Of a stretch of 33,300 bases of DNA, positions 8,716 to 33,300 are shown piece by piece. The stretch's first letter is position 1. The number at the start of each line of letters is the position of its first letter. This stretch comes from a virus. The notes under the pieces were generated by a model. That model saw nothing but the letters and a program-made list of their open reading frames with translations, did not search any database and was not told the DNA's origin. The DNA is taken from the IMG/VR virus record IMGVR_UViG_3300042484_002499, positions 1 to 33,300 of that record. One strand, 5' to 3'. Made by a program: the position numbers and the translations under genes.

Positions 8716-10434
8716 GTGGCAGATAAGACGCTAAGCAACTACGCCGGAGCGACGTTGGCCGGCATCGTGGACGACCTTGGTAATCCGCTCGTGTCGCCGT
8801 CTACTAGCGGCGGCAGTGCGTTCGTCCTCGGTCCTTCTGTCTATCGGTTGATCGTCGCAGGGGTGAGCAACGGCGACATCGCTATGCCGCCGGCAGACGC
8901 GACCGCGTTGATCTCGGACGACAACCCGCTGCCCTTCTTTTCGTGGGATAACAGCGGCGGCACCGGTATCACTGCGCAGGTTATCGCAAACGGCACCTCG
9001 TCCAGCGGCAACGCGCTGCGCATCACTATCGGCACGGCCGTGACGTCCGGCACCGCGACACTCTCGCGCATTGAGCCGATCACCGGCACCGGCGACCGTG
9101 GTTTTGCGTTCATTCCGCAGATGACGGCCATCGGCACGTTGAGCGGCGGCACTGCCGCGCTCGCCGATTTGTACTTCTCATGGCTCGCCCCTGACCAGAG
9201 CACCGTGGTCGGCACTGCGCCGGCCACGCAGACGTTCAACTTCCAAGAGTTCTACAGCAGCAACGCCGTCACGCTATCAGCCGGCGACGACGCCTTTCAA
9301 GCGGCGAGCCTTTACAACTGTGCGCCGGTTGGCGCTGCGTTCTTGCAGATGACCGCGCGCTTCAGGGTAACGGCCGCCGGCACCGGCATCATCGCGCGCA
9401 CTCTTGACATTACCGACTTCGCGATCGCCGTAGGCGAGCCGATCGTGTACCTTGCCGAGCACACCGACGTGAACGAGTACGGTGCTGGTTTTATCCAGCA
9501 AGATCAAGGCAGCGTCACGATTGAGAGCGGGCGCGGCACCGCGCTCGGTTCTACTATCGGCGCCGTGCGCATCGGCAACGGCAACGCGCAGTTCGGAGAT
9601 CCGACCTACGGCTACATTCAACTAGATGCGGGTCCTACCGGCATCATCAACTTGGCCGCTGACAGCGTTGAAGCCGACAACGACATCACCGCAACCGGCG
9701 ACGTTTCTGCTGCCGTCGTCCGTACCAGCACGGTAGCAACGACTGGCGACTTGTCGCTTAGCGCCGACGGCGGCGACGTAATCGTTCGCCATGGCGCGGG
9801 CGCTGGAACTACGCCGCGCGTCCTGTTCAGAATCGGCGACGGCACGTACTACGGCGGCATTCGCATGGGCGCGCTCAATAACTTCGCCTTTTTGAGCGGC
9901 AGCACTACCACGACTTACGCCTACGTGCTGGCCGCGCGCATCTACCCTATGAACGGCACGACTGGCAGCCGGTACATCTACGACGACGGCAGCAAGACTG
10001 CCTTCACTGGTGGCATTGATACGGCTGGCAGCATCAACACGACTGGCTCAATCCTGAACGACAGCATTAGCACGACAACGGCAACGGCGAACGCTGCGAT
10101 CTGGGTCTTGTCGTCCGGCTCGTCGTACACGTTGCGCCGTAACTCGTCCTCTATCCGCTACAAGACGAACGTGACGAACGCCGACGACAACGTGCTAGAG
10201 TCGGCGCGTCGCGTAAAACCGCGCCACTACGAGAGCACGATCGCAGACGAGGCCGGCGCTACGCGGCTCGGTTTCATCGCTGAAGAAGTGCACGATGCCG
10301 GACTCACGCATGCCGTGGGCTACGATGAAGAAGGACGACCAGAATCGCTAGACGCAACGGCGTTGATCGCCGCGCTGTGGCACCGTGTTGATGACCTTGA
10401 AGCGCGCCTCGCGGCGCTGGAGGCTAAAGAATGA
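8716..10434 (+). CDS. Tail fibre with C-terminal S74-type self-cleaving chaperone
   Basis: A 572-residue protein rich in Gly, Thr and Ser with beta-repeat character, the likely receptor-binding fibre. The C-terminus (SSSIRYKTNVTNADDNVLES, then HYESTIADEAG, LGFIAEEV and a final coiled coil DDLEARLAALEAKE) matches the intramolecular chaperone domain (peptidase S74). That domain trimerises the fibre and then cuts itself off with a Ser-Lys pair; the S-x-R-x-K region is present. Start is GTG 8716 with AGGAGG at 8704-8709; an upstream extension lies inside the hub gene. Its stop overlaps the next gene. Confidence 0.85.
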   Translation: MADKTLSNYAGATLAGIVDDLGNPLVSPSTSGGSAFVLGPSVYRLIVAGVSNGDIAMPPADATALISDDNPLPFFSWDNSGGTGITAQVIANGTSSSGNALRITIGTAVTSGTATLSRIEPITGTGDRGFAFIPQMTAIGTLSGGTAALADLYFSWLAPDQSTVVGTAPATQTFNFQEFYSSNAVTLSAGDDAFQAASLYNCAPVGAAFLQMTARFRVTAAGTGIIARTLDITDFAIAVGEPIVYLAEHTDVNEYGAGFIQQDQGSVTIESGRGTALGSTIGAVRIGNGNAQFGDPTYGYIQLDAGPTGIINLAADSVEADNDITATGDVSAAVVRTSTVATTGDLSLSADGGDVIVRHGAGAGTTPRVLFRIGDGTYYGGIRMGALNNFAFLSGSTTTTYAYVLAARIYPMNGTTGSRYIYDDGSKTAFTGGIDTAGSINTTGSILNDSISTTTATANAAIWVLSSGSSYTLRRNSSSIRYKTNVTNADDNVLESARRVKPRHYESTIADEAGATRLGFIAEEVHDAGLTHAVGYDEEGRPESLDATALIAALWHRVDDLEARLAALEAKE

Positions 10435-10616
10435 CGCGCGCACAGACAGACTCGCAGATCATTGAGCGGCTGGACCGCATTGAGCGCGACCTCTCCGACA
10501 TCAAGGTGGAACTCGCCGAGGCGCGGGGTGCGTACCGGCTCGCCAAGTTCGTCATCGCTCTGCTCGGTGTGAGCGGACTCGGTGGCGTGCTCGCGTGGCT
10601 AAACGGCCAGAAGTAG
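10431..10616 (+). CDS. Small membrane protein, possible holin component
   Basis: A 61-residue protein with an acidic/basic amphipathic helix (IERLDRIERDLSDIKVELAEA, in part a heptad coiled coil) followed by one transmembrane segment at about residues 38-55 (FVIALLGVSGLGGVLAWL). This layout is like XhlA-type and other accessory lysis proteins. It lies between fibre and endolysin genes, with ATGA overlap at its start. It may be a holin, an antiholin or a membrane anchor. A second candidate holin is the C-terminal domain of the next gene. Confidence 0.55.
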   Translation: MTRAQTDSQIIERLDRIERDLSDIKVELAEARGAYRLAKFVIALLGVSGLGGVLAWLNGQK

Positions 10617-10625
10617 GAGCAACAG

Positions 10626-11621
10626 ATGAAGAAGTTCAAGATCGTAACGCAGACGGACAGCGTAGAACAGGGCAAGGCCGGCACCGTGCTGGACAACTGG
10701 ATGGACGACTGTGCTCCGTCATCGGTAGCAGCGTGCGCCAACTGGCTGCTCGGCACGAGCCTCACCAGCAAGGACGGCAACGCGCTTGCGGCGCGCGCCG
10801 GTCGCAAGGACCGCGACGGCCGCGGCGATCCTACAACACACGCGCAGAGCAGCAAGGCCGCGAAACTCGCCGGCCTAACTGTGCGTTATGCTAAGGACTG
10901 GGCCGACGTTGAGCGCGCCCTCAAGGACGAAACCAGCGCGCTCCTCGTTTCAGTTGAGCAGGCCCGCGGCTACCCCGCCGGTGTACGCATGTCGTCGTGG
11001 CACGTCAAACACCAAAAGCGCACGAAGGGCCGCACGTATGGACACAGCACGGCAGCGGCCGCCGGTCCTAAGGGAGCGCAGTGGGCCGACCCTACAATGA
11101 GCGGCAAGGGCGCCGAGGCCTACGCCGTAGACGTCACACTCGCAGAGTTGAAGCAGATCGCAGCGAGTGCGAACCCTAAGGCGCCGCACAAGAGCGTGCG
11201 CATCTTGAAGGCCGCGGCCCGCACGGTGGTAACGACTGAAACCGTTGCACCGGCGCCTTCACCGGCGCCTGTCGTGGCGCCTGTCGTGGAGAATCCACGA
11301 ACACCTACGCCGTCACGTGCTAAAGTAATCGCAGACGTTGAAGCGCCTAACGCGCTGACCGTCGCGCTCGGCGTGGTCAATCGGCTAAACGCAGCGAAAG
11401 GGAACGAAACGATGAAACAGCAGATCACGGCCGCGCTATTGGACGCGCTAACGGCAGCACTGAGCACGAGCATCGCGGTGTTCCTTGGTATGGGCATCTC
11501 GGTGTTTGATCTCACCGGCGACGGCGCGAAGGCGCTCGTCGCTTCAGCAGTGTCGGCGGCGCTCATGGTTCTGCAGCGTTGGTTGGACGAGGATAACTCA
11601 CGCTACGGACGCAGCCGCTAA
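10626..11621 (+). CDS. Endolysin with C39-like peptidase domain and C-terminal holin-like domain
   Basis: A 331-residue protein. The N-terminal domain has a catalytic Cys29 in the context DDCAPSSVAACANW, a later His in YGHSTAAAAGP (about residue 140) and Asp in WADPT. This is the C39/papain-like triad order found in lysins of many actinophages, which cut peptidoglycan stem or cross-bridge peptides. A Pro/Val-rich linker (about 205-230) leads to a hydrophobic C-terminal domain with two predicted membrane helices (about 272-290 and 300-316) and a charged tail, which looks like a small phage holin. Lysin and holin are thus encoded in one frame. An internal start could release the holin alone. 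Confidence 0.75.
   Translation: MKKFKIVTQTDSVEQGKAGTVLDNWMDDCAPSSVAACANWLLGTSLTSKDGNALAARAGRKDRDGRGDPTTHAQSSKAAKLAGLTVRYAKDWADVERALKDETSALLVSVEQARGYPAGVRMSSWHVKHQKRTKGRTYGHSTAAAAGPKGAQWADPTMSGKGAEAYAVDVTLAELKQIAASANPKAPHKSVRILKAAARTVVTTETVAPAPSPAPVVAPVVENPRTPTPSRAKVIADVEAPNALTVALGVVNRLNAAKGNETMKQQITAALLDALTAALSTSIAVFLGMGISVFDLTGDGAKALVASAVSAALMVLQRWLDEDNSRYGRSR
11412..11621 (+). CDS. Holin-like internal product in the endolysin frame (predicted)
   Basis: In-frame ATG at 11412, with a ribosome-site-like AAAGGGA at 11397-11403 and 8-nt spacing, would give a 69-residue protein starting MKQQITAALLDALTAAL. It would contain both membrane segments and the charged end DEDNSRYGRSR. That is an ordinary size and layout for a class II holin. 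Separate expression is a prediction; the alternative is that only the full-length fusion is made and acts as a membrane-tethered lysin. Confidence 0.5.
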   Translation: MKQQITAALLDALTAALSTSIAVFLGMGISVFDLTGDGAKALVASAVSAALMVLQRWLDEDNSRYGRSR

Positions 11622-13347: not shown

Positions 13348-13686
13348 CTAGATGTCGGCCGGCTCCCTCCAATGCGTGCACTGCACGCACGCACAGAGGC
13401 CGGCCGGATTGACGTACTTACCGGCACAGACTCGTTCGCAGTCGTCGTTGAGGCAATCGGTCCAAGACGCCTGTTCAGCGAGGACTGCATCAAAGAACTC
13501 GCGCCGGAATAGGCCCTCGTCAAAACGAGGCGCTACCGAACTAAACCCGTCCATGACGGCGCCGAGTACTCCGCCAACGATCCCCTGAAAGGACTCGTCG
13601 CAATAGCGTGCCTGTGCGATCTCGCGGCCTAGCGATCGCGCTACGGCCTTGAACGTCTTGGTCGTTGGTGTGCTTGTGCTTGGCAT
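13348..13686 (-). CDS. Unknown protein with C-terminal cysteine cluster
   Basis: A 112-residue protein of unknown function, last gene of the first leftward operon. Its C-terminus is cysteine-rich (CLNDDCERVC and CACVQC with a nearby His), suggesting a zinc site. The start is ATG 13686, with an excellent AAGGAGGAGG ribosome site. An alternative GTG at 13719 would overlap the upstream stop as GTGA and add 11 residues, but the strong site favours 13686. Small genes like this in leftward phage operons are often early host-interaction factors; nothing in the sequence says which. Confidence 0.6.
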   Translation of the reverse strand: MPSTSTPTTKTFKAVARSLGREIAQARYCDESFQGIVGGVLGAVMDGFSSVAPRFDEGLFRREFFDAVLAEQASWTDCLNDDCERVCAGKYVNPAGLCACVQCTHWREPADI

Positions 13687-13710
13687 GATAGCCTCCTCCT
13701 TCACTGTTGG

Positions 13711-13738
13711 GCCGGTCACTTGCCGGCCTCTGCGATCT
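13711..13738. repeat. 28-bp direct repeat at gene junction, copy 1
   Basis: Identical to 14004-14031. On the minus strand it encodes the last residues IAEAGK of one gene and the first of the next (GTGACCGG). The copies mark two consecutive gene junctions of the same operon. Confidence 0.85.
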
Positions 13739-14012
13739 GCGCCTTCAACTGTGCCACGCGCTCGGTCCAGCGCGCGATGCTCGCTTCAACCTTCGCGATC
13801 GTCGCCTCGTAGCGCGCGATGCTCTCGTGCTGGTGCGCGACGTATTCGGCCACTTCTGCCGGATTGAACTTGAACGCGACCGAGTTCGCGATCACCTGCT
13901 TCGCTTGGTTGATCCAGCGCCGGTTGTGCGACTTCTGCGCGCGCAGGCTCTTGATCTCGTCCACCAATGACGAGATCTCGTACTCGGCTGCAGCGATCTG
14001 TGCGCCGGTCAC
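13716..14012 (-). CDS. Small coiled-coil protein
   Basis: A 98-residue, highly helical protein. Two heptad-rich regions (EYEISSLVDEIKSLRAQK and HESIARYEATIAKVEASI) flank a shorter segment, predicting an antiparallel helical hairpin or oligomer. GTG start at 14012 overlaps the upstream stop. Its own end (IAEAGK, stop overlapping the next GTG) is identical in DNA to the end of the gene upstream, over a 28-bp direct repeat. Function unknown; middle gene of a three-gene leftward operon. Confidence 0.6.
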   Translation of the reverse strand: MTGAQIAAAEYEISSLVDEIKSLRAQKSHNRRWINQAKQVIANSVAFKFNPAEVAEYVAHQHESIARYEATIAKVEASIARWTERVAQLKAQIAEAGK

Positions 14013-14031
14013 TTGCCGGCCTCTGCGATCT
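14004..14031. repeat. 28-bp direct repeat at gene junction, copy 2
   Basis: Exact copy of 13711-13738, spanning the end of the 14009-14359 gene and the start of the 13716-14012 gene on the minus strand. Confidence 0.85.
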
Positions 14032-14359
14032 TGGCGAGCGCCTTGAGCGCTCGGCCCTTCAGCCCTCGCATCATCGCCAACCGCGCACCGGCGTCGCGCA
14101 CGTCGTAGTCGTAGCGCATTTCGCCGGCAGCGTAATCGGCCTCACTGTCGGACCATGAAACGAGTTCACGAGCCGCCGCTGCATCAACGACGAGCGTCGC
14201 ACCGGCGACGATCGCGTTCTGCTCGTCCAGTTGAGTGCTGAGGTCGGTCCATACGGCCGCGATGTCGGCCTCTTCTACGCCAATGCCGGCGTAGTTGTCC
14301 ATCACCTCGGCCAACGACGCCGACACCTTGATCGTTGCGTGCGTGTTGTTTCCGGTCAT
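14009..14359 (-). CDS. Unknown small protein, first gene of leftward operon 1
   Basis: A 116-residue, acidic, soluble protein with no recognised motif. ATG 14359 follows an AGGAGG site, which itself follows the conserved leader hairpin and a strong leftward promoter. The N-terminal half (LAEVMDNYAGIGVEEADIAAVW) and the C-terminal helix (DAGARLAMMRGLKGRALKAL) suggest an alpha-helical domain. The stop overlaps the next GTG. The promoter quality suggests strong early expression. No function is proposed. Confidence 0.6.
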   Translation of the reverse strand: MTGNNTHATIKVSASLAEVMDNYAGIGVEEADIAAVWTDLSTQLDEQNAIVAGATLVVDAAAARELVSWSDSEADYAAGEMRYDYDVRDAGARLAMMRGLKGRALKALAKIAEAGK

Positions 14360-16710: not shown

Positions 16711-17748
16711 ATGGGAGTACTCGCATTAGTAGGAGCGCAGTGGGGCAGCGAGGGCAAGGGCGTCATCGCGGCAGGCCTCGCCGGTACGGTAGGCGGCGCG
16801 GTTCGCGTCGGCGGTCCTAACGCCGGCCATTCGTTCGTTCACGGCGGCAAACTGTGGAAGATGCGCAGCGTGCCGTGCGCGTGGGTCAGTGGTGGCGACC
16901 TGTTCATTGGCGCCGGCGCCGTGCTCAACGCCGAACTGCTAGAAAAGGAACTCGCAGAGATCGGCCGCGTGCGGCCTATCTACGTGGACCGGCACGCGGT
17001 GCTGATCCGGCACGAGGACGAAGAGGCAGAGAAGGAGATCGTCGCGAAGATCGGCAGCACCGGCGAAGGAGTCGGCGCGGCGCGTATCGCGAAGATCAAG
17101 CGCGACGGCAGCGTGCTGTTGGCGAAAGACTACACTTGGACCTCGCCGCTCGTCGTGGTGACGGACACGGTGCCGCTCATTGCGGCGCTCATTGATTCCG
17201 GTGCCACGGTCATGCTAGAAGGCACGCAGGGCAGCGGTTTGTCGTTGCACCATGGCGCCTACCCGCACGTTACCAGCAGCGACACGAACGCGAGCGGCAT
17301 GGCGGCAGAGGCCGGCATCGCTCCGTCGTTGATCACGGACGTGCACCTCGTGGCTCGCACTTACCCGATTCGCGTGGCCGGCCCTAGCGGGCCAATGGGC
17401 AACGAGATCGGTTGGGAGGCTCTGCCGGTGCTGACACCAGAACGCACGACGGTCACCAACAAGGTGCGCCGCGTCGCTGAGTGGAGTGAGGAGCAGTTCG
17501 CTCGCGCGATCCTGCTAAACCGACCTACCGGCATCTGGCTCACGTTCGGCGACTATCTTGATCCGAGTATTCGCGGCGAAACGAACGCGGCGACAGTGTT
17601 GGCGAGCAGCGCGGTGCGCGAGTTCGTCGGCCGAGTTGAGCGCGACTACGCCGTGCCGGTGCTCGGCGTTGGTACCGGCGGCGACGGTTTCCAAGTTGCA
17701 CACCTTAGCGGCGACACGCGCGGCCGTTCATGGGCGTGGAAGAAGTGA
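16711..17748 (+). CDS. purZ: PurZ: phage 2-aminoadenylosuccinate synthetase
   Basis: A 345-residue PurA homologue that in Z-genome phages joins dGMP and aspartate to give N6-succino-2-amino-dAMP, first step to dZTP. The P-loop-like start VGAQWGSEGKG carries Ser13 where PurA has the catalytic Asp of WGDEGKG; this substitution is the accepted PurZ mark. GGPNAGHSF keeps the catalytic His (His40). Other PurA-type blocks are STGEGVGAARI, EGTQGSGLSLHHG, TSSDTNASG and an Arg-containing RTYPIRV loop. Length fits PurZ rather than the about 430-residue bacterial PurA. ATG 16711 follows a GGAGGAG site; an in-frame extension upstream overlaps the previous gene. The stop overlaps the kinase gene. Confidence 0.92.
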   Translation: MGVLALVGAQWGSEGKGVIAAGLAGTVGGAVRVGGPNAGHSFVHGGKLWKMRSVPCAWVSGGDLFIGAGAVLNAELLEKELAEIGRVRPIYVDRHAVLIRHEDEEAEKEIVAKIGSTGEGVGAARIAKIKRDGSVLLAKDYTWTSPLVVVTDTVPLIAALIDSGATVMLEGTQGSGLSLHHGAYPHVTSSDTNASGMAAEAGIAPSLITDVHLVARTYPIRVAGPSGPMGNEIGWEALPVLTPERTTVTNKVRRVAEWSEEQFARAILLNRPTGIWLTFGDYLDPSIRGETNAATVLASSAVREFVGRVERDYAVPVLGVGTGGDGFQVAHLSGDTRGRSWAWKK

Positions 17749-18302
17749 CCGCGCCTTTTAGGGGTCACCAGTTCGTAGCGATCACAGGCACGCCGGCCGC
17801 CGGTAAGAGCACGCTCGCCGCGGCTCTTGCCGAGGCGTTCGGTGTGAACGTGTTGAGTGCCGGCGACGTAGCGCGCTCGGTAGACGACGCGAGCCGGACG
17901 ACCGGCGCGATGGCGGCCGAGGACTCGTTCCGTGATGAGTGGGGCAAACGCGTCGCCGCTCACACGGGCGCGCCTTTGGTGCTTGAAGGAATCCCGCGCA
18001 AGCAGTCGCAGGTGGATCTGCTACCGGCCGACACGCTTGTGCTCGTGCTGCTGACAGATCAACCGACGAGCCTCGTGCGCATGTACGCGCGCAACCGCAT
18101 TGATGACGGGTTCGCAGCGGACCGGTACGAGGCGGCGCTGGTGCAGTTTGGCATGGCCGGCGGCGTGCAAGAAGCAGGCACGTGGGTGACTGACCTCGCC
18201 GGTGCGGGCCACACGCTGCGCACCGACGCGCTGACACCTGAACAGGTGAACGCCTCGGTGTTGCGCTATCTATCCGGCGCGCAGGATTCTGTGGCCGGTT
18301 GA
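17745..18302 (+). CDS. Adenylate-kinase-like deoxynucleoside monophosphate kinase
   Basis: A 185-residue P-loop kinase. Walker A is GTPAAGKS at residues 15-22. LSAGDVAR resembles the S-S-G-D-x-x-R nucleotide-binding segment of adenylate kinases, and LEGIPR resembles their L-D-G-F-P-R motif. A lid-like Arg region (MYARNRIDDGF) follows. The GTG start at 17745 overlaps the purZ stop as GTGA; an ATG at 17730 is an alternative that would add five residues. Tight coupling to purZ suggests it phosphorylates dZMP (or dGMP) to the diphosphate. Substrate is inferred from context only. Confidence 0.75.
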   Translation: MTAPFRGHQFVAITGTPAAGKSTLAAALAEAFGVNVLSAGDVARSVDDASRTTGAMAAEDSFRDEWGKRVAAHTGAPLVLEGIPRKQSQVDLLPADTLVLVLLTDQPTSLVRMYARNRIDDGFAADRYEAALVQFGMAGGVQEAGTWVTDLAGAGHTLRTDALTPEQVNASVLRYLSGAQDSVAG

Positions 18303-18321
18303 GTTGAGAGAGGAGAGAGAG

Positions 18322-18744
18322 ATGACAGAGTTGAAGTTCACCGCGGCAGCGGACGCAGTTGAGCCGACGTTCGCCTACGAAGGCGACGCCGGTATGGACC
18401 TCGCAGTGCTAGGCACGCACACGCTACAACCAAACGAGAGGCGCGACCTCCCGACCGGTGTGGCGATCCAGTTGCCAGTCGGCCACTACGCGAGGCTGGT
18501 CGGTCGCAGCAGCACGTTGAGGAAGCGCGGCCTCTTCGTCTTTGAGGGCATCATTGACCAAGGCTATCGCGGGCCTCTGTTCGTGTTCGTTGAGAACAAG
18601 ACGAGCGAAGAGGTCATCGTGTGGGAAGGTTCAAGGATCGCGCAGATCATCGTGCAGCCTATCGTGCAGCCGGCGCTCGTCAAGGTTGAGGCGCTGGACG
18701 ACAGTGAGCGCGGCGCCAAGGGTTTCGGGAGCAGCGGCCTGTGA
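18322..18744 (+). CDS. dut: dUTPase (trimeric type)
   Basis: A 140-residue trimeric dUTP diphosphatase, converting dUTP to dUMP. All five motifs are present: 1 DAGMDL, 2 GRSSTLRKRGL (unusual; common is R-S-x-L-A), 3 GIIDQGYRGPL with the catalytic Asp, 4 RIAQIIV, and 5 RGAKGFGSSGL at the C-terminus, which closes over the site. It lies between the kinase and a deoxyribosyltransferase-like gene in the nucleotide block. ATG 18322 follows GAGGAGAG; the reading frame could extend to 18304 without a start that fits better. The altered motif 2 could change activity. Confidence 0.93.
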   Translation: MTELKFTAAADAVEPTFAYEGDAGMDLAVLGTHTLQPNERRDLPTGVAIQLPVGHYARLVGRSSTLRKRGLFVFEGIIDQGYRGPLFVFVENKTSEEVIVWEGSRIAQIIVQPIVQPALVKVEALDDSERGAKGFGSSGL

Positions 18745-19190
18745 CGCCGCCGCTGGTGTACGTCGCCGGCGCGATTGACTACGCAGAGCGCGGCGATCAC
18801 AACGAGGCAGGGCCGGCGCACGTCGCCGAGTTCTGGCCGGACGGCATTGAGTTGTTCTGCCCTCGGTGTGAGAACGCAGGCGAGGAGAGCCTTGACTCGG
18901 TGATGCATCGCAACTGGGGCGCCGTCAATGACGCCGCCGTTGTCGTGGCCTTCTTGGACACGTCGGTGCTGTCAATCGGCACGCCTATTGAGATCTGGGA
19001 AAAGGCCAAACAGGACGCCGGCGCGGTGGTGTTGGTGCACTGGTCCGAGTCCGGCACGCTCGGCGTGTTCGCTCGTTGGTGGCAGTCGCGCGGTGTTGAG
19101 GTGATCAACGCCGTGGACGGACTGACACAGGGCGAAGCAGTGGCCGCGGCCGTGCGCGACGCGGTGCGCCGCAAGTTGGCCCTCCAATGA
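18741..19190 (+). CDS. Nucleoside 2-deoxyribosyltransferase-like protein
   Basis: A 149-residue protein of the NDT/DNPH1 fold. The start PLVYVAGAIDYAERG is the family's Rossmann-like strand with a Gly-Ala-Ile turn, and NDAAVVVAFLD...IGTPIEIWEKAK (quoted in parts) holds the GT-x-x-E motif whose Glu is the expected catalytic residue. The family either swaps bases between deoxynucleosides or hydrolyses deoxynucleoside monophosphates. GTG start at 18741 overlaps the dUTPase stop. In a Z-phage it might salvage or remove specific deoxynucleotides, such as dAMP; this is an inference. Confidence 0.75.
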   Translation: MTPPLVYVAGAIDYAERGDHNEAGPAHVAEFWPDGIELFCPRCENAGEESLDSVMHRNWGAVNDAAVVVAFLDTSVLSIGTPIEIWEKAKQDAGAVVLVHWSESGTLGVFARWWQSRGVEVINAVDGLTQGEAVAAAVRDAVRRKLALQ

Positions 19191-22660: not shown

Positions 22661-22692
22661 CTGTTCCTCCTCGCCGGCGGTGCCGGCATCTG

Positions 22693-22712
22693 CGGGCGGC
22701 TGGTGCCTCCCG
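22693..22712 (-). ncRNA. Conserved 5'-leader RNA hairpin, copy 2
   Basis: Minus-strand RNA CGGG-A-GGC-ACCA-GCC-G-CCCG: 4-bp stem, A-G mismatch, 3-bp stem, ACCA loop, starting 9 nt after the -10. Compared with copy 1 the outermost pair changes from G-C to C-G. A GCCGGC inverted repeat (22673-22687) also precedes the ribosome site as in copy 1. Confidence 0.8.
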
Positions 22713-22721
22713 TCTGGGTTT

Positions 22722-22751
22722 AGTAAAACACACCCCTAGCGAGCCTGTCAA
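22722..22751 (-). promoter_or_regulatory. Leftward promoter of operon 2
   Basis: Minus strand: TTGACA (22746-22751), 18-bp spacer, TTTACT (22722-22727), discriminator AAACCCAGA. -35 is the exact consensus. Confidence 0.85.
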
Positions 22752-22887
22752 TGGGGTAGGGGAGCCGGTAGGGGCCGGAGGCGAGCGCGGCCCTCGGAGA
22801 GTACTCTACGACGGGGGTGCTATTCGCGCCCGTCCACGCGTACGAGGCCCCTCTCCGTGGCTCGGAGATGCCAAGGAAGGCCCGCCG
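22752..22887. other. Intergenic region with small hairpins
   Basis: A 136-bp non-coding stretch between the operon-2 promoter and the end of operon 3. It holds a 10-bp palindrome AGAGTACTCT (22798-22807) and a TCTCCG/CGGAGA hairpin (22852-22868). On the minus strand a GGCCC/GGGCC stem containing the HTH gene stop is followed by TTCCTT. These may end the leftward operon 3, but none is a textbook terminator. Confidence 0.4.
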
Positions 22888-23110: not shown

Positions 23111-24400
23111 CTAGAGCCGACCGACAAGGCCGGCGATTCGCTTGATGGTGCCTTCGTTGTCTGCTGCGAGTTGCAACGCTGCGACCAGCGGCCCGTCGGT
23201 AACCGGCTCGCTCAACTGTGACAACACCGCACCGACCAACGGCATGCCGACGTCACGCGAGTACGTCAGCCCTCGTTCCGTCGCTCTATAGGCGTCCTGT
23301 CGGTTGATGCCGTGAGCCACGAGCGTGTCCAAGATGCGGCCACTGAGCAGGCGCTCGTCGTGTAGCGAGTTAGCGCGTGCCGCCTCCTCGTTCACCTCCA
23401 ACTCGTTGATGACGCCGCGGAGTTCGCTAAGGACGAAGTCAAAAACGGCGAACGCGTCCGGCACGACCACCCGCTCGGTGCTGCTGTGCGAGAGGTCGCG
23501 CTCGTGCCAAAGCGCTTGACTCTCCATCATCGCCACGGCATACGCACGCAGGAGCCGGCTGAGGCCGGTGATGCGCTCGCTGCGCACGGGGTTGCTCTTG
23601 TGCGGCATCGCACTGCTACCCTGCTGCGCCGGTGCCTTGAACTCCGACACCTCGCCGAGTTCGTCCTGCGCCAAGAGCCGCACGCTCGTCGCGATGCGCT
23701 CAAAGGTGCCGGCGGCCACGGCCATCGTCGCCAACAGAGAGGCCAACCGGTCGCGCGCCACGATCTGCGTAGCGAACGGCTCCGGCCTTAGCCCTAGCGA
23801 GAGCAACGCGCGCCGCTCCTGCTCTGGTGTCAGCACCGGATAGGTGCCGACCGGTCCGCTTAGTTTGCCGATCAACAGGCCGGCGAGCGCCTCGTCTAGC
23901 CGGTCGTAGGAGCGGCGCAGTTCGCAGTGCCAGCCGGCCAGTTTGAACCCGAACGTGGACAGTTGGGCGCGCCGCCCGTGCGTCCTAGCCGCTACCGGTG
24001 TCGCCGCGTGCCGGTGTGCCAGAATGCGCAACTCGGCCAGCAGGTCAAGGAACTCGTCACGGACGAGGTCGCCGGCGTCGCGCAGTTGAAGCGCGAGAGC
24101 CGTGTCTGCCACGTCGCTGCTGGTCAGTCCGTAGTGAAACCAGCGCTCCCCCGCTGGGCCGGCCGTCTTGCCGGTCGCCTCAACGAAGGCCGCCGTTTCG
24201 TGCTTCAGGCGCCTCTCGGCCTCCTTGATCGCCGGCACGTCCACCCGCGCCCGCTGGATCGCCTCGGCGTCCTTGAGCGGCACGAGGCCATCGTCGGCCA
24301 GCACGTCCGTCGCGGCCTGTTCCACCATGAGCATGTGTTTGAAGCGGCCCTCGTCCGACCACACGCCGGCCATCTGTGGCCTCTGGTATCTCTCAATCAT
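23111..24400 (-). CDS. purB: Adenylosuccinate lyase
   Basis: A 429-residue full-length PurB homologue of the fumarase/aspartase superfamily. Three conserved regions are seen: YGLTSSDVADTA (first signature, about residues 89-100), ARTHGRRAQLSTFG with the catalytic His (about 139-152), and QQGSSAMPHKSNP, the flexible superfamily signature loop with the catalytic Ser. It splits adenylosuccinate and, for PurZ product, would release fumarate to give dZMP. The gene starts at ATG 24400 with GGGAGGAG upstream, 8 nt inside the end of the Mom-like gene. Encoded far from purZ and on the other strand. Confidence 0.93.
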   Translation of the reverse strand: MIERYQRPQMAGVWSDEGRFKHMLMVEQAATDVLADDGLVPLKDAEAIQRARVDVPAIKEAERRLKHETAAFVEATGKTAGPAGERWFHYGLTSSDVADTALALQLRDAGDLVRDEFLDLLAELRILAHRHAATPVAARTHGRRAQLSTFGFKLAGWHCELRRSYDRLDEALAGLLIGKLSGPVGTYPVLTPEQERRALLSLGLRPEPFATQIVARDRLASLLATMAVAAGTFERIATSVRLLAQDELGEVSEFKAPAQQGSSAMPHKSNPVRSERITGLSRLLRAYAVAMMESQALWHERDLSHSSTERVVVPDAFAVFDFVLSELRGVINELEVNEEAARANSLHDERLLSGRILDTLVAHGINRQDAYRATERGLTYSRDVGMPLVGAVLSQLSEPVTDGPLVAALQLAADNEGTIKRIAGLVGRL

Positions 24401-25064
24401 TCCGATCTCCTCCCGCTTTTGTCGGATACGGTAGCACCTTGTACTTCAAGGCCGCGCGCATCCGCTTCTTGTCCGTCTTGCTACCGACTAGGTACACGTA
24501 CCGGTGTTTACGTGAGCGCTCCACTCGCGTGACGTTCTCGGTGCCGAACCTGCCCGCGACGTCGCTATGCCCGACTCCTCTGGTCCAACTCCGCGGGTGC
24601 ACGTGCTCCAACCCCTTCACAACCGTGTCCGTGCGTTTCGCGGACAGGCCGGTGTAGAGTGCATTCGTCGCTTGGTAGACGATCCCCTCGTGACCTTGCG
24701 CCGTGTCTGCGAAGGACACCACCACAGACGGGCGCGGCAACAGCAGCAACGACGCACTGACCAACCGGCCCGCTTCGTAGCGGCGATTGTCTGCCAACAC
24801 CAACCGGCTAAGTTCTAGCACTCTAGCGCTCCATTCGTCGCCGCAGATACCGCGAATCAGCGCCGGCGTAGACGGACGGCCGTAGGTCACCACGCCGACC
24901 AGTCCGCCGCTCAAAAACAGGCCAAAGGCGTGGCTCACCGTGGGCATTCTGTGGGCGTAGTGCAACTCCAAGATGAACGGCCGCGCGTCTTGTGTCGTGA
25001 TCCGTCGCACGGCGTACCCCTCGGCCTGTTCGTTGAACGCGCCGAGTTGCTGGGGGAGAGTCAT
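24393..25064 (-). CDS. Mom-family DNA adenine-modification protein
   Basis: A 223-residue protein. H-Y-x-H-R (35-39), SHAFGLF...GLVGVVTYG (44-62), LELSRLVLAD (83-92), VVVSFADTAQGHEGIVYQATN (split: SFADTAQGHEG 117-127 and IVYQATN 128-134) and a final KKRMRAALKYKVLPYPTK are the pattern of phage Mom proteins, GNAT-fold enzymes that turn adenine into a methylcarbamoyl-adenine to block restriction. ATG 25064 overlaps the preceding stop (ATGA); the frame could extend to 25088. The target may be A or Z. Family assignment is from pattern memory, not a search. Confidence 0.82.
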   Translation of the reverse strand: MTLPQQLGAFNEQAEGYAVRRITTQDARPFILELHYAHRMPTVSHAFGLFLSGGLVGVVTYGRPSTPALIRGICGDEWSARVLELSRLVLADNRRYEAGRLVSASLLLLPRPSVVVSFADTAQGHEGIVYQATNALYTGLSAKRTDTVVKGLEHVHPRSWTRGVGHSDVAGRFGTENVTRVERSRKHRYVYLVGSKTDKKRMRAALKYKVLPYPTKAGGDRND

Positions 25065-25390
25065 ACGCCGGCGCTTCGCATCGTCCAAGGTGCGACCTCA
25101 ATAACAACGTCGCGCTCGGTGCCTACCGGCGAGGTCGCCCGCACCTGCATACGAAGCAGGCCAGCGGCGTCGTGCGTTGAACTCAACGACTCGGATAAGA
25201 CGACGCGCCAACCGTTTGGACTGGCCGCCTCCATACCGGCCGCGACCCCGTGGGCCACGGCTCGCGTCGTGTGGATAGCCGTGCCGATTGACGTCGTCCG
25301 TAGGTACACCTCGGACGAGCCGGCCCCCGACCGGATCAGCACGCTCCACTCCTCAATCACGGCGGGGTTCTCGCTTCTTTGGTTTTTCAT
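25061..25390 (-). CDS. Unknown protein upstream of Mom-like gene
   Basis: A 109-residue protein with a beta-rich centre (EEWSVLIRSGAGSSEVYLRTTS) and a closing VVIEVAPW strand. The mixed Thr/Ser/Val composition suggests a small beta-sandwich or ferredoxin-like fold; no family recognised. Start is ATG 25390 with GAGAGGAG upstream. An alternative ATG at 25420 overlaps the upstream stop. Its stop overlaps the Mom-like start. Coupling suggests a partner or control factor for Mom, but nothing in the sequence proves it. Confidence 0.55.
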   Translation of the reverse strand: MKNQRSENPAVIEEWSVLIRSGAGSSEVYLRTTSIGTAIHTTRAVAHGVAAGMEAASPNGWRVVLSESLSSTHDAAGLLRMQVRATSPVGTERDVVIEVAPWTMRSAGV

Positions 25391-25416
25391 GGTCGCACTC
25401 CTCTCTGCTCCTGCCA

Positions 25417-25833
25417 TCATTCAACCTCCACGCTCTCAACGTGCCAACCGACCGGCACCTGTTCGCTCGTCAGCAGTTTCTCGCCGACCAACTCGGAGAA
25501 GGTGTCGCGCGCTGCGTCAGCGAGCGCCTCTTCAACCTCCTCGCGTGCGGCGAACTTACCGGAAACCCGCAGGGCGTCGGCAGTGATCCGAAAGACTAGC
25601 GTGCGGCCGCTGCCGTGCAGAGCAAACGGCGCCGCGGTTGAATAACCGGCGACCTCGTATTCGCTCTCGCCGTCGGCGCCTAATCCATCAAACGCTTCGC
25701 CGTCAAGGTAGCCGGCGAAGGCTGTGACCAACTTCGTCGCTCGGTCCGTAATGTACTCGCACGCCTCCTCGTGCGTCTGCATCGCGCCGGCCGTCTGTGC
25801 CAGTTCAACGAGGACCTCAATCTCGGCCTTCAC
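25417..25833 (-). CDS. Unknown acidic protein, leftward operon 3
   Basis: A 138-residue protein. The N-terminus is helical (KAEIEVLVELAQTAGAMQTHEEACEYI). It has a mid-section with GSGRTLVFRITADALRVSG and a C-terminal acidic tail with VGWHVESVEVE. GTG 25833 overlaps the previous stop; the longer open frame up to 26130 runs inside the upstream gene. Function unknown. Confidence 0.55.
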   Translation of the reverse strand: MKAEIEVLVELAQTAGAMQTHEEACEYITDRATKLVTAFAGYLDGEAFDGLGADGESEYEVAGYSTAAPFALHGSGRTLVFRITADALRVSGKFAAREEVEEALADAARDTFSELVGEKLLTSEQVPVGWHVESVEVE

Positions 25834-26416: not shown

Positions 26417-26448
26417 TCTGCTCTCCTCTCGGCCTGCCGGCCGTTTCG

Positions 26449-26468
26449 CGGGTCGCTAGTGCGCCCCG
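26449..26468 (-). ncRNA. Conserved 5'-leader RNA hairpin, copy 3
   Basis: Minus-strand RNA CGGG-G-CGC-ACTA-GCG-A-CCCG. The inner stem is CGC/GCG where the other copies have GGC/GCC, a compensatory change in both arms, and the loop is ACTA. Position (9 nt after the -10) and length are identical to the other copies. Confidence 0.8.
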
Positions 26469-26477
26469 TCTGATATT

Positions 26478-26507
26478 AGTAAACCACACCCGTGCCGAGC
26501 CTGTCAA
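26478..26507 (-). promoter_or_regulatory. Leftward promoter of operon 3 (Mom/purB)
   Basis: Minus strand: TTGACA (26502-26507), 18-bp spacer ending TGTGG, TTTACT (26478-26483), discriminator AATATCAGA. Same layout as the two other leftward promoters. Confidence 0.85.
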
Positions 26508-26542
26508 TGGGGTACCCGCGGCACCCCCCTCGCCCCGCGTAT

Positions 26543-33268: not shown

Positions 33269-33300
33269 GGCGCCGCACGTGCGTGAGCCCGGGCGGCGCC
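33269..33300. repeat. Palindromic element, right copy of the window-end inverted repeat
   Basis: Arms GGCGCCGC (33269-33276) and GCGGCGCC (33293-33300) with a 16-nt centre; reverse complement similar to 21-52. The terminal 14 bases (33287-33300) are the exact reverse complement of 21-34. It follows the capsid gene by 21 nt. Confidence 0.7.

Follow-up and report, generated by a model that had tools for sequence, protein, structure and literature searches.

The 33.3-kb stretch of viral DNA analysed here (hereafter the window) carries two modules of interest: a plus-strand block of candidate genes for synthesis of 2-aminoadenine (Z), and a minus-strand cassette in which a gene of the Mom family directly precedes purB (Table 1). 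An earlier note on this DNA had placed a Mom-like gene next to purB in a Z-type phage, with an 8-nt overlap suggesting that both are made from one message. The coordinates of mom are correct, with the minus strand to be added, the overlap and coupling are borne out, the profile search that the note had proposed upholds the Mom-family assignment, and the Z type holds at the level of gene content (PurZ, DutZ-like and DmtZ-like genes).

Table 1. Features of the window, and the tandem mom genes of a second virus contig, with their positions and supporting evidence.
Feature	Position	Strand	Description	Evidence
purZ-like (P0003)	16711..17748	plus	345 aa, GSEGKG motif	PHROG 1211 8.5e-68, tree
P-loop nucleotide kinase-like	17730..18302	plus	possibly acting on dZMP	PF13238 AAA_18 4e-8
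dUTPase family, DutZ candidate	18325..18744	plus		PF00692 7.2e-30
DmtZ candidate, deoxyribosyltransferase fold	18741..19190	plus	149 aa	five functional residues kept
purB (P0002)	23111..24400	minus	429 aa, adenylosuccinate-lyase family	PF00206 Lyase_1 9.5e-40
mom stop/purB start overlap	24393..24400	minus	exactly 8 nt	ATGATTGA
mom (P0001)	24393..25064	minus	223 aa	PF25680 5.3e-36, PHROG 1384 3.7e-49, fold match to Mu Mom 8bv8
mom codon 99	24768..24770	minus	Gly	GGC
119-aa ORF	25061..25420	minus	hypothetical	ATGA overlap with mom at 25061-25064
138-aa ORF	25417..25833	minus	hypothetical	ATGA overlap with 119-aa ORF at 25417-25420
Promoter-like element, TTGACA...TTTACTAA	26476..26507	minus	32 nt, operon head; repeated at 22720-22751	TTGACAGGCTCG..GGTGTGGTTTACTAA
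Two tandem mom genes of G036	L129 18176-19581

Operon structure around mom and purB

The mom gene starts with an ATG at 25064 and stops with a TGA at 24395-24393; an alternative TTG start at 25088 would give a protein of 231 aa. A Shine–Dalgarno-like sequence, GGGAGGAG, sits inside mom just 5' of the purB ATG, and the encoded PurB is 37% identical to that of Streptomyces phage Hiyaa. Given the mom–purB overlap and the two ATGA overlaps further upstream, the minus-strand operon comprises at least four tightly packed genes. The 119-aa ORF upstream of mom gave no match in the family search and has no cysteine; no Com-like gene was seen in the window. At the operon head lies a TTGACA...TTTACTAA element, of which the window has two copies and shuffled sequence has none. 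Both are held, on the minus strand, by a 67-nt direct repeat (82%; 22692-22758 and 26448-26514), and the element is probably a shared promoter. A general sigma-70 scan of the window found no promoter, and the spacer in the TTGACA repeat is longer.

Mom family membership and a replaced serine

Mom of phage Mu is a methylcarbamoylase, an enzyme that decorates DNA bases by attaching its group to N6 of adenine. The window protein matches nearly the whole Pfam Mom profile (residues 17-214; 124.6 bits against a curated cut-off of 27.1) as well as the PHROG family annotated 'Mom-like', and phmmer comparison with Mu Mom (PDB 8bv8) gave 5e-11. Modelled by AlphaFold2 from 64 Mom sequences (pLDDT 90.9), the protein has Mu Mom as its best PDB match (E 1e-13, TM about 0.67). 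The core motifs HY..R, E-L-x-R, (S)xAD and GxxYxAxN are present, although the Ser position itself is occupied by Gly, and the core residues H35, Y36, R39, E84, R87, D120, H125, Y130 and N134 are kept. The two proteins thus have family and predicted fold in common, with about 29% identity and 25 of 37 family-conserved residues shared, and we regard membership of the Mom family as settled on these profile and model comparisons. The window protein differs from Mu Mom in the Gly that replaces the conserved Ser and in adjoining purB in a probably Z-making phage. Moms of Roseobacter CRP-902, Microbacterium BarnCat and Listeria LP-026 belong to the same family (38-43% identical to the window protein); PurZ was not detected in the whole record of any of these phages. 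The bacterial genomes searched held no close relative of the window Mom, and no near-identical phage DNA to the window was found.

Position 99 is Ser in 62 of 64 Mom family members and Gly in the window. In a leave-one-out comparison over the 64 Moms, 40 columns are strongly conserved, and the window protein differs at five of these (S66T, N96Y, S99G, F135A and K215T), against a family median of 0. Position 99 aligns with Ala115 of the 8bv8 chain, in an entry whose title reads 'inactive mutant S124A'. Mu Mom is, we assume, also numbered on a 241-aa form, hence Ala115 would be the S124A site, and Gly99 apparently corresponds to the residue that was replaced in the structure of inactive Mu Mom. 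If this equivalence is right, the window Mom lacks a residue that Mu Mom needs, so its activity cannot be assumed, and because of the replaced Ser we file the protein as a Mom homologue and not as a proven methylcarbamoylase. The Mom of record L089 also has Gly at this position, which suggests that Gly may be tolerated.

Candidate genes for Z synthesis

The window PurZ has Ser in its GSEGKG motif in place of the catalytic Asp of PurA, a Ser that each of the 147 phage PurZs in PMC12884076 also carries. In our tree it belongs to a supported group of metagenomic PurZs that lies apart from both characterised groups, PurZ and PurZ0, the latter being the clade of Ghobes, Wayne and Hiyaa. Records L107-L126 form a well supported metagenomic PurZ clade, distinct from characterised PurZ0 and PurZ and usually with an adjoining dUTPase. 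A single-sequence search of IMG/VR found nothing closely related to the PurB or PurZ of the window.

The DutZ candidate shares 41-45% identity with the DutZ proteins of Ghobes and Wayne, DutZ being a dUTPase-family enzyme that hydrolyses dATP/dGTP. The DmtZ candidate has no Pfam match, but all five functional residues tested, which were taken from PMC12884076, are kept (Y7, D13, P41, N58 and E84, equivalent to Y6, D12, P57, N77 and E103 of Ghobes DmtZ). Its model, of moderate confidence, matches the folds of DNPH1, MilB and deoxyribosyltransferases, and in other Z loci homologues of the protein occupy the place between PurZ and the dUTPase. PurZ with the catalytic Ser, the kinase, the DutZ-like protein and the DmtZ-like protein with its functional residues together make Z synthesis likely, and we infer that the window phage likely makes Z. 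Ghobes, Wayne and Hiyaa resemble the window in having PurZ with Ser and DutZ-like and DmtZ-like enzymes, and Ghobes also in encoding PurB; they differ in having no Mom and in the clade of their PurZ. A PurB-type lyase is likewise encoded in eight of 50 PurZ-bearing records (e.g. L143, L160 and L180), which makes phage PurB a recurrent but optional part of Z synthesis.

Polymerase content, completeness and lineage

Family A DNA polymerase (PolA; PF00476), the family expected of a phage's own Z-selective polymerase (DpoZ), is absent from the window, whose large ORFs can all be assigned to non-polymerase functions. Unlike the window, Ghobes and Wayne encode PolA, as do G036 (see below) and 18 of the 19 nearest relatives of the window PurZ that were tested (L107-L125). 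The contig appears nearly complete: its capsid gene runs to 33247 and a glycosyltransferase gene starts from position 75, and L239, a terminase relative, has the same order with a gap of 101 nt. No terminal repeat was found in the window. Its last 32 nt (33269-33300) match nt 21-52, on the other side of the likely circular junction, as an inverted repeat with imperfections; this is either a terminator hairpin or an assembly artefact.

Where Z-cluster genes worked with host polymerases in E. coli, about every fourth plasmid adenine was converted to Z (PMC8342488). The lack of PolA favours a mixed A/Z genome, with both A and Z as substrates, and the DNA of the window phage may be such a mixture. 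Cyanophage S-2L makes Z-DNA without a Z-selective PolA, through dATP removal (PMC8065100); since S-2L also lacks a family A polymerase, the window phage may have Z-DNA all the same. The means differ, however: S-2L uses PrimPol, DatZ and MazZ, whereas the window has DutZ- and DmtZ-like genes and no polymerase.

Among 34 terminase relatives of the window (within L194-L246), PurZ is found in none and Mom in four. L239 is collinear with the window but has neither the block from PurZ to DmtZ nor the PurB–Mom cassette, and L006 has a mom 60% identical to that of the window at a different place, in an early operon. This indicates gain (or loss) of each module as a block. An assembly chimera is unlikely, as the L239-collinear backbone surrounds the Z module (16711-19190) as well as the PurB–Mom cassette and GC is even (62-66%).

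Recurrence of PurZ with Mom

Examination of about 114 PurZ-bearing IMG/VR records revealed a convincing Mom in just two further ones, G187 (L286) and G036 (L129), and the pairing is therefore rare. G187 (41.6 kb) has the gene order PrimPol, PolA, RuvC-like, hypothetical, mom, purZ, DmtZ-like, DutZ and terminase, with mom (9312-9977) 32 nt upstream of purZ (10010-11047). Its PurZ belongs to PurZ0, and its Mom has retained both the Ser and the core residues; with a complete PurZ0 cluster, G187 is a cleaner example than the window. L179, a syntenic Z relative of G187 (PurZ 73%, PolA 83% and PrimPol 87% identical), has no mom between the hypothetical gene and purZ; a Z cluster thus either acquired mom or lost it.

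G036 (105 kb) carries purZ, a deoxyribosyltransferase-like gene, PolA and, about 7 kb from purZ, two tandem Moms. The first keeps the Ser; the second is degenerate, with 19 of 40 conserved residues changed, and was left uncounted as an enzyme. Two Moms also occur in L071 and L047. Near purZ and the deoxyribosyltransferase-like gene, L129 encodes a DeoC-like aldolase (13550-14236), which could use deoxyribose 5-phosphate from DmtZ-type hydrolysis. A 'Mom' match in G082 (L191, 12401-14488) is the C-terminal part of a homing-endonuclease-like ORF and was likewise not counted; L191 is a large phage with PurZ, and this ORF ends in a weak Mom/GNAT-like domain and has one in-frame TAG near its end.

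In the trees, the PurZs of the window, G187 and G036 stand on separate branches, and the Moms of the window and of G036 each join a different set of Moms, from records in which PurZ was not detected. This indicates that the PurZ–Mom pairing apparently arose separately in the three viruses. No Z-specific Mom clade was seen in the Mom tree, the nearest relatives of the window Mom (L002 and L005) lie in fragments without PurZ, and PurZ was not found in 73 Mom-bearing records. A collection of named phages holds 215 PurZ and 121 Mom records, their overlap having been checked through representatives only. As gene content, the coupling of a Mom gene to Z-synthesis genes is solid, and it is recurrent though rare.

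The earlier note had known of no report of such a pair. Our literature search agrees, in that no paper was found that has PurZ, Mom and aminoadenine together (subscription literature and preprints lay outside the search), and the pairing itself is strengthened by G187 and G036. At the sequence level, what is new is the recurrence of PurZ with Mom in two other virus contigs and the Gly99 that replaces the conserved Ser in the window Mom.

Possible roles of Mom in a probable Z-making phage

Z base replacement and post-replicative Mom decoration are known as separate phage disguises. That the two occur together in what appear to be no fewer than three cases, in one of them with mom immediately ahead of purZ, suggests that the protection given by Z is sometimes insufficient and that phages layer several defences on a single genome. 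For the window, we lean slightly towards a Mom-family, GNAT-fold DNA-modification enzyme at work in a phage that makes Z. PurZ would convert dGMP to the succino-Z nucleotide, PurB, co-translated with Mom, would free dZMP, kinases would raise it to dZTP, and DutZ and DmtZ would drain dATP and dAMP. Host polymerases, in place of PolA, would then insert Z plus some residual A, and after replication Mom would put a carbamoylmethyl-type group on the exocyclic N6 of Z, of the remaining A or of both. Such a group, as a second layer of nuclease protection, is most likely what Mom adds, but the copy in the window could be an altered enzyme or an inactive one. Weighing against this reading are the replaced Ser together with N96Y and F135A, the nearest Mom relatives in fragments lacking PurZ, the absence of a Z-specific Mom clade and the rarity of the pairing.

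In vitro, methyltransferases also accept Z, although their activity is at least tenfold lower than with A, and N6-methyl-Z is resistant to an endonuclease (PMC8342488); chemically, then, Z can be modified at N6. Mom-bearing Z-phages might then contain the doubly modified base N6-(carbamoylmethyl)-2-aminoadenine, a Mom group atop Z, and the Ser-to-Gly change in the window might even have been selected to accommodate the additional 2-amino group; we put this forward tentatively, as a proposal that may well fail. To our knowledge, no such DNA base has been described. The pairing brings it within reach of standard enzymology with DNA that contains Z, and the natural Ser-to-Gly variant offers a probe of the poorly understood Mom mechanism.

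Alternative explanations

Through the loss of Ser, the window Mom could be crippled or changed, i.e. a decaying relic, or a GNAT that moves another acyl group or only binds DNA. This would suit a Gly at the apparent site of the inactive Mu mutant, where nearly the whole family has Ser, the residues Y96 and A135, which are unusual too, and the retention of Ser in the Moms of the other Z-phages (G187 and the first copy of G036). We nevertheless consider it rather unlikely: the ORF is intact and otherwise conserved, the operon is well formed, Gly recurs in L089, and the equation of Ser99 with S124 depends on the alignment and on the assumed numbering.

Alternatively, an active Mom could modify only those adenines that escaped Z replacement; Z would be no substrate, no doubly altered base would arise and the two systems would share the work. 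Residual A is expected in a genome without PolA, as in the E. coli plasmids mentioned above, N6-methyltransferases are poor on Z (PMC8342488), and the nearest Moms come from phages without detected PurZ. Yet Mom is also present in G187 and G036, which encode a family A polymerase, possibly Z-selective, so that little residual A would be expected there, and we give this explanation the same rather low probability as a crippled Mom.

Somewhat less probable still is that mom and purB are neighbours by chance in a region of accessory genes, with Mom and Z functionally unlinked. The PurB–Mom cassette does lie in a variable region absent from L239, the window's phage lineage has mom without PurZ at another place (L006), and PurZ with Mom is a rare combination; against this, the window mom overlaps a Z-pathway gene by 8 nt and mom adjoins purZ in G187. 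Finally, an ordinary GNAT acetyltransferase with no kinship to Mom is ruled out, since other GNAT folds match the model at 3e-5 or weaker, and the Mom profiles and the Mu Mom structure match far better.
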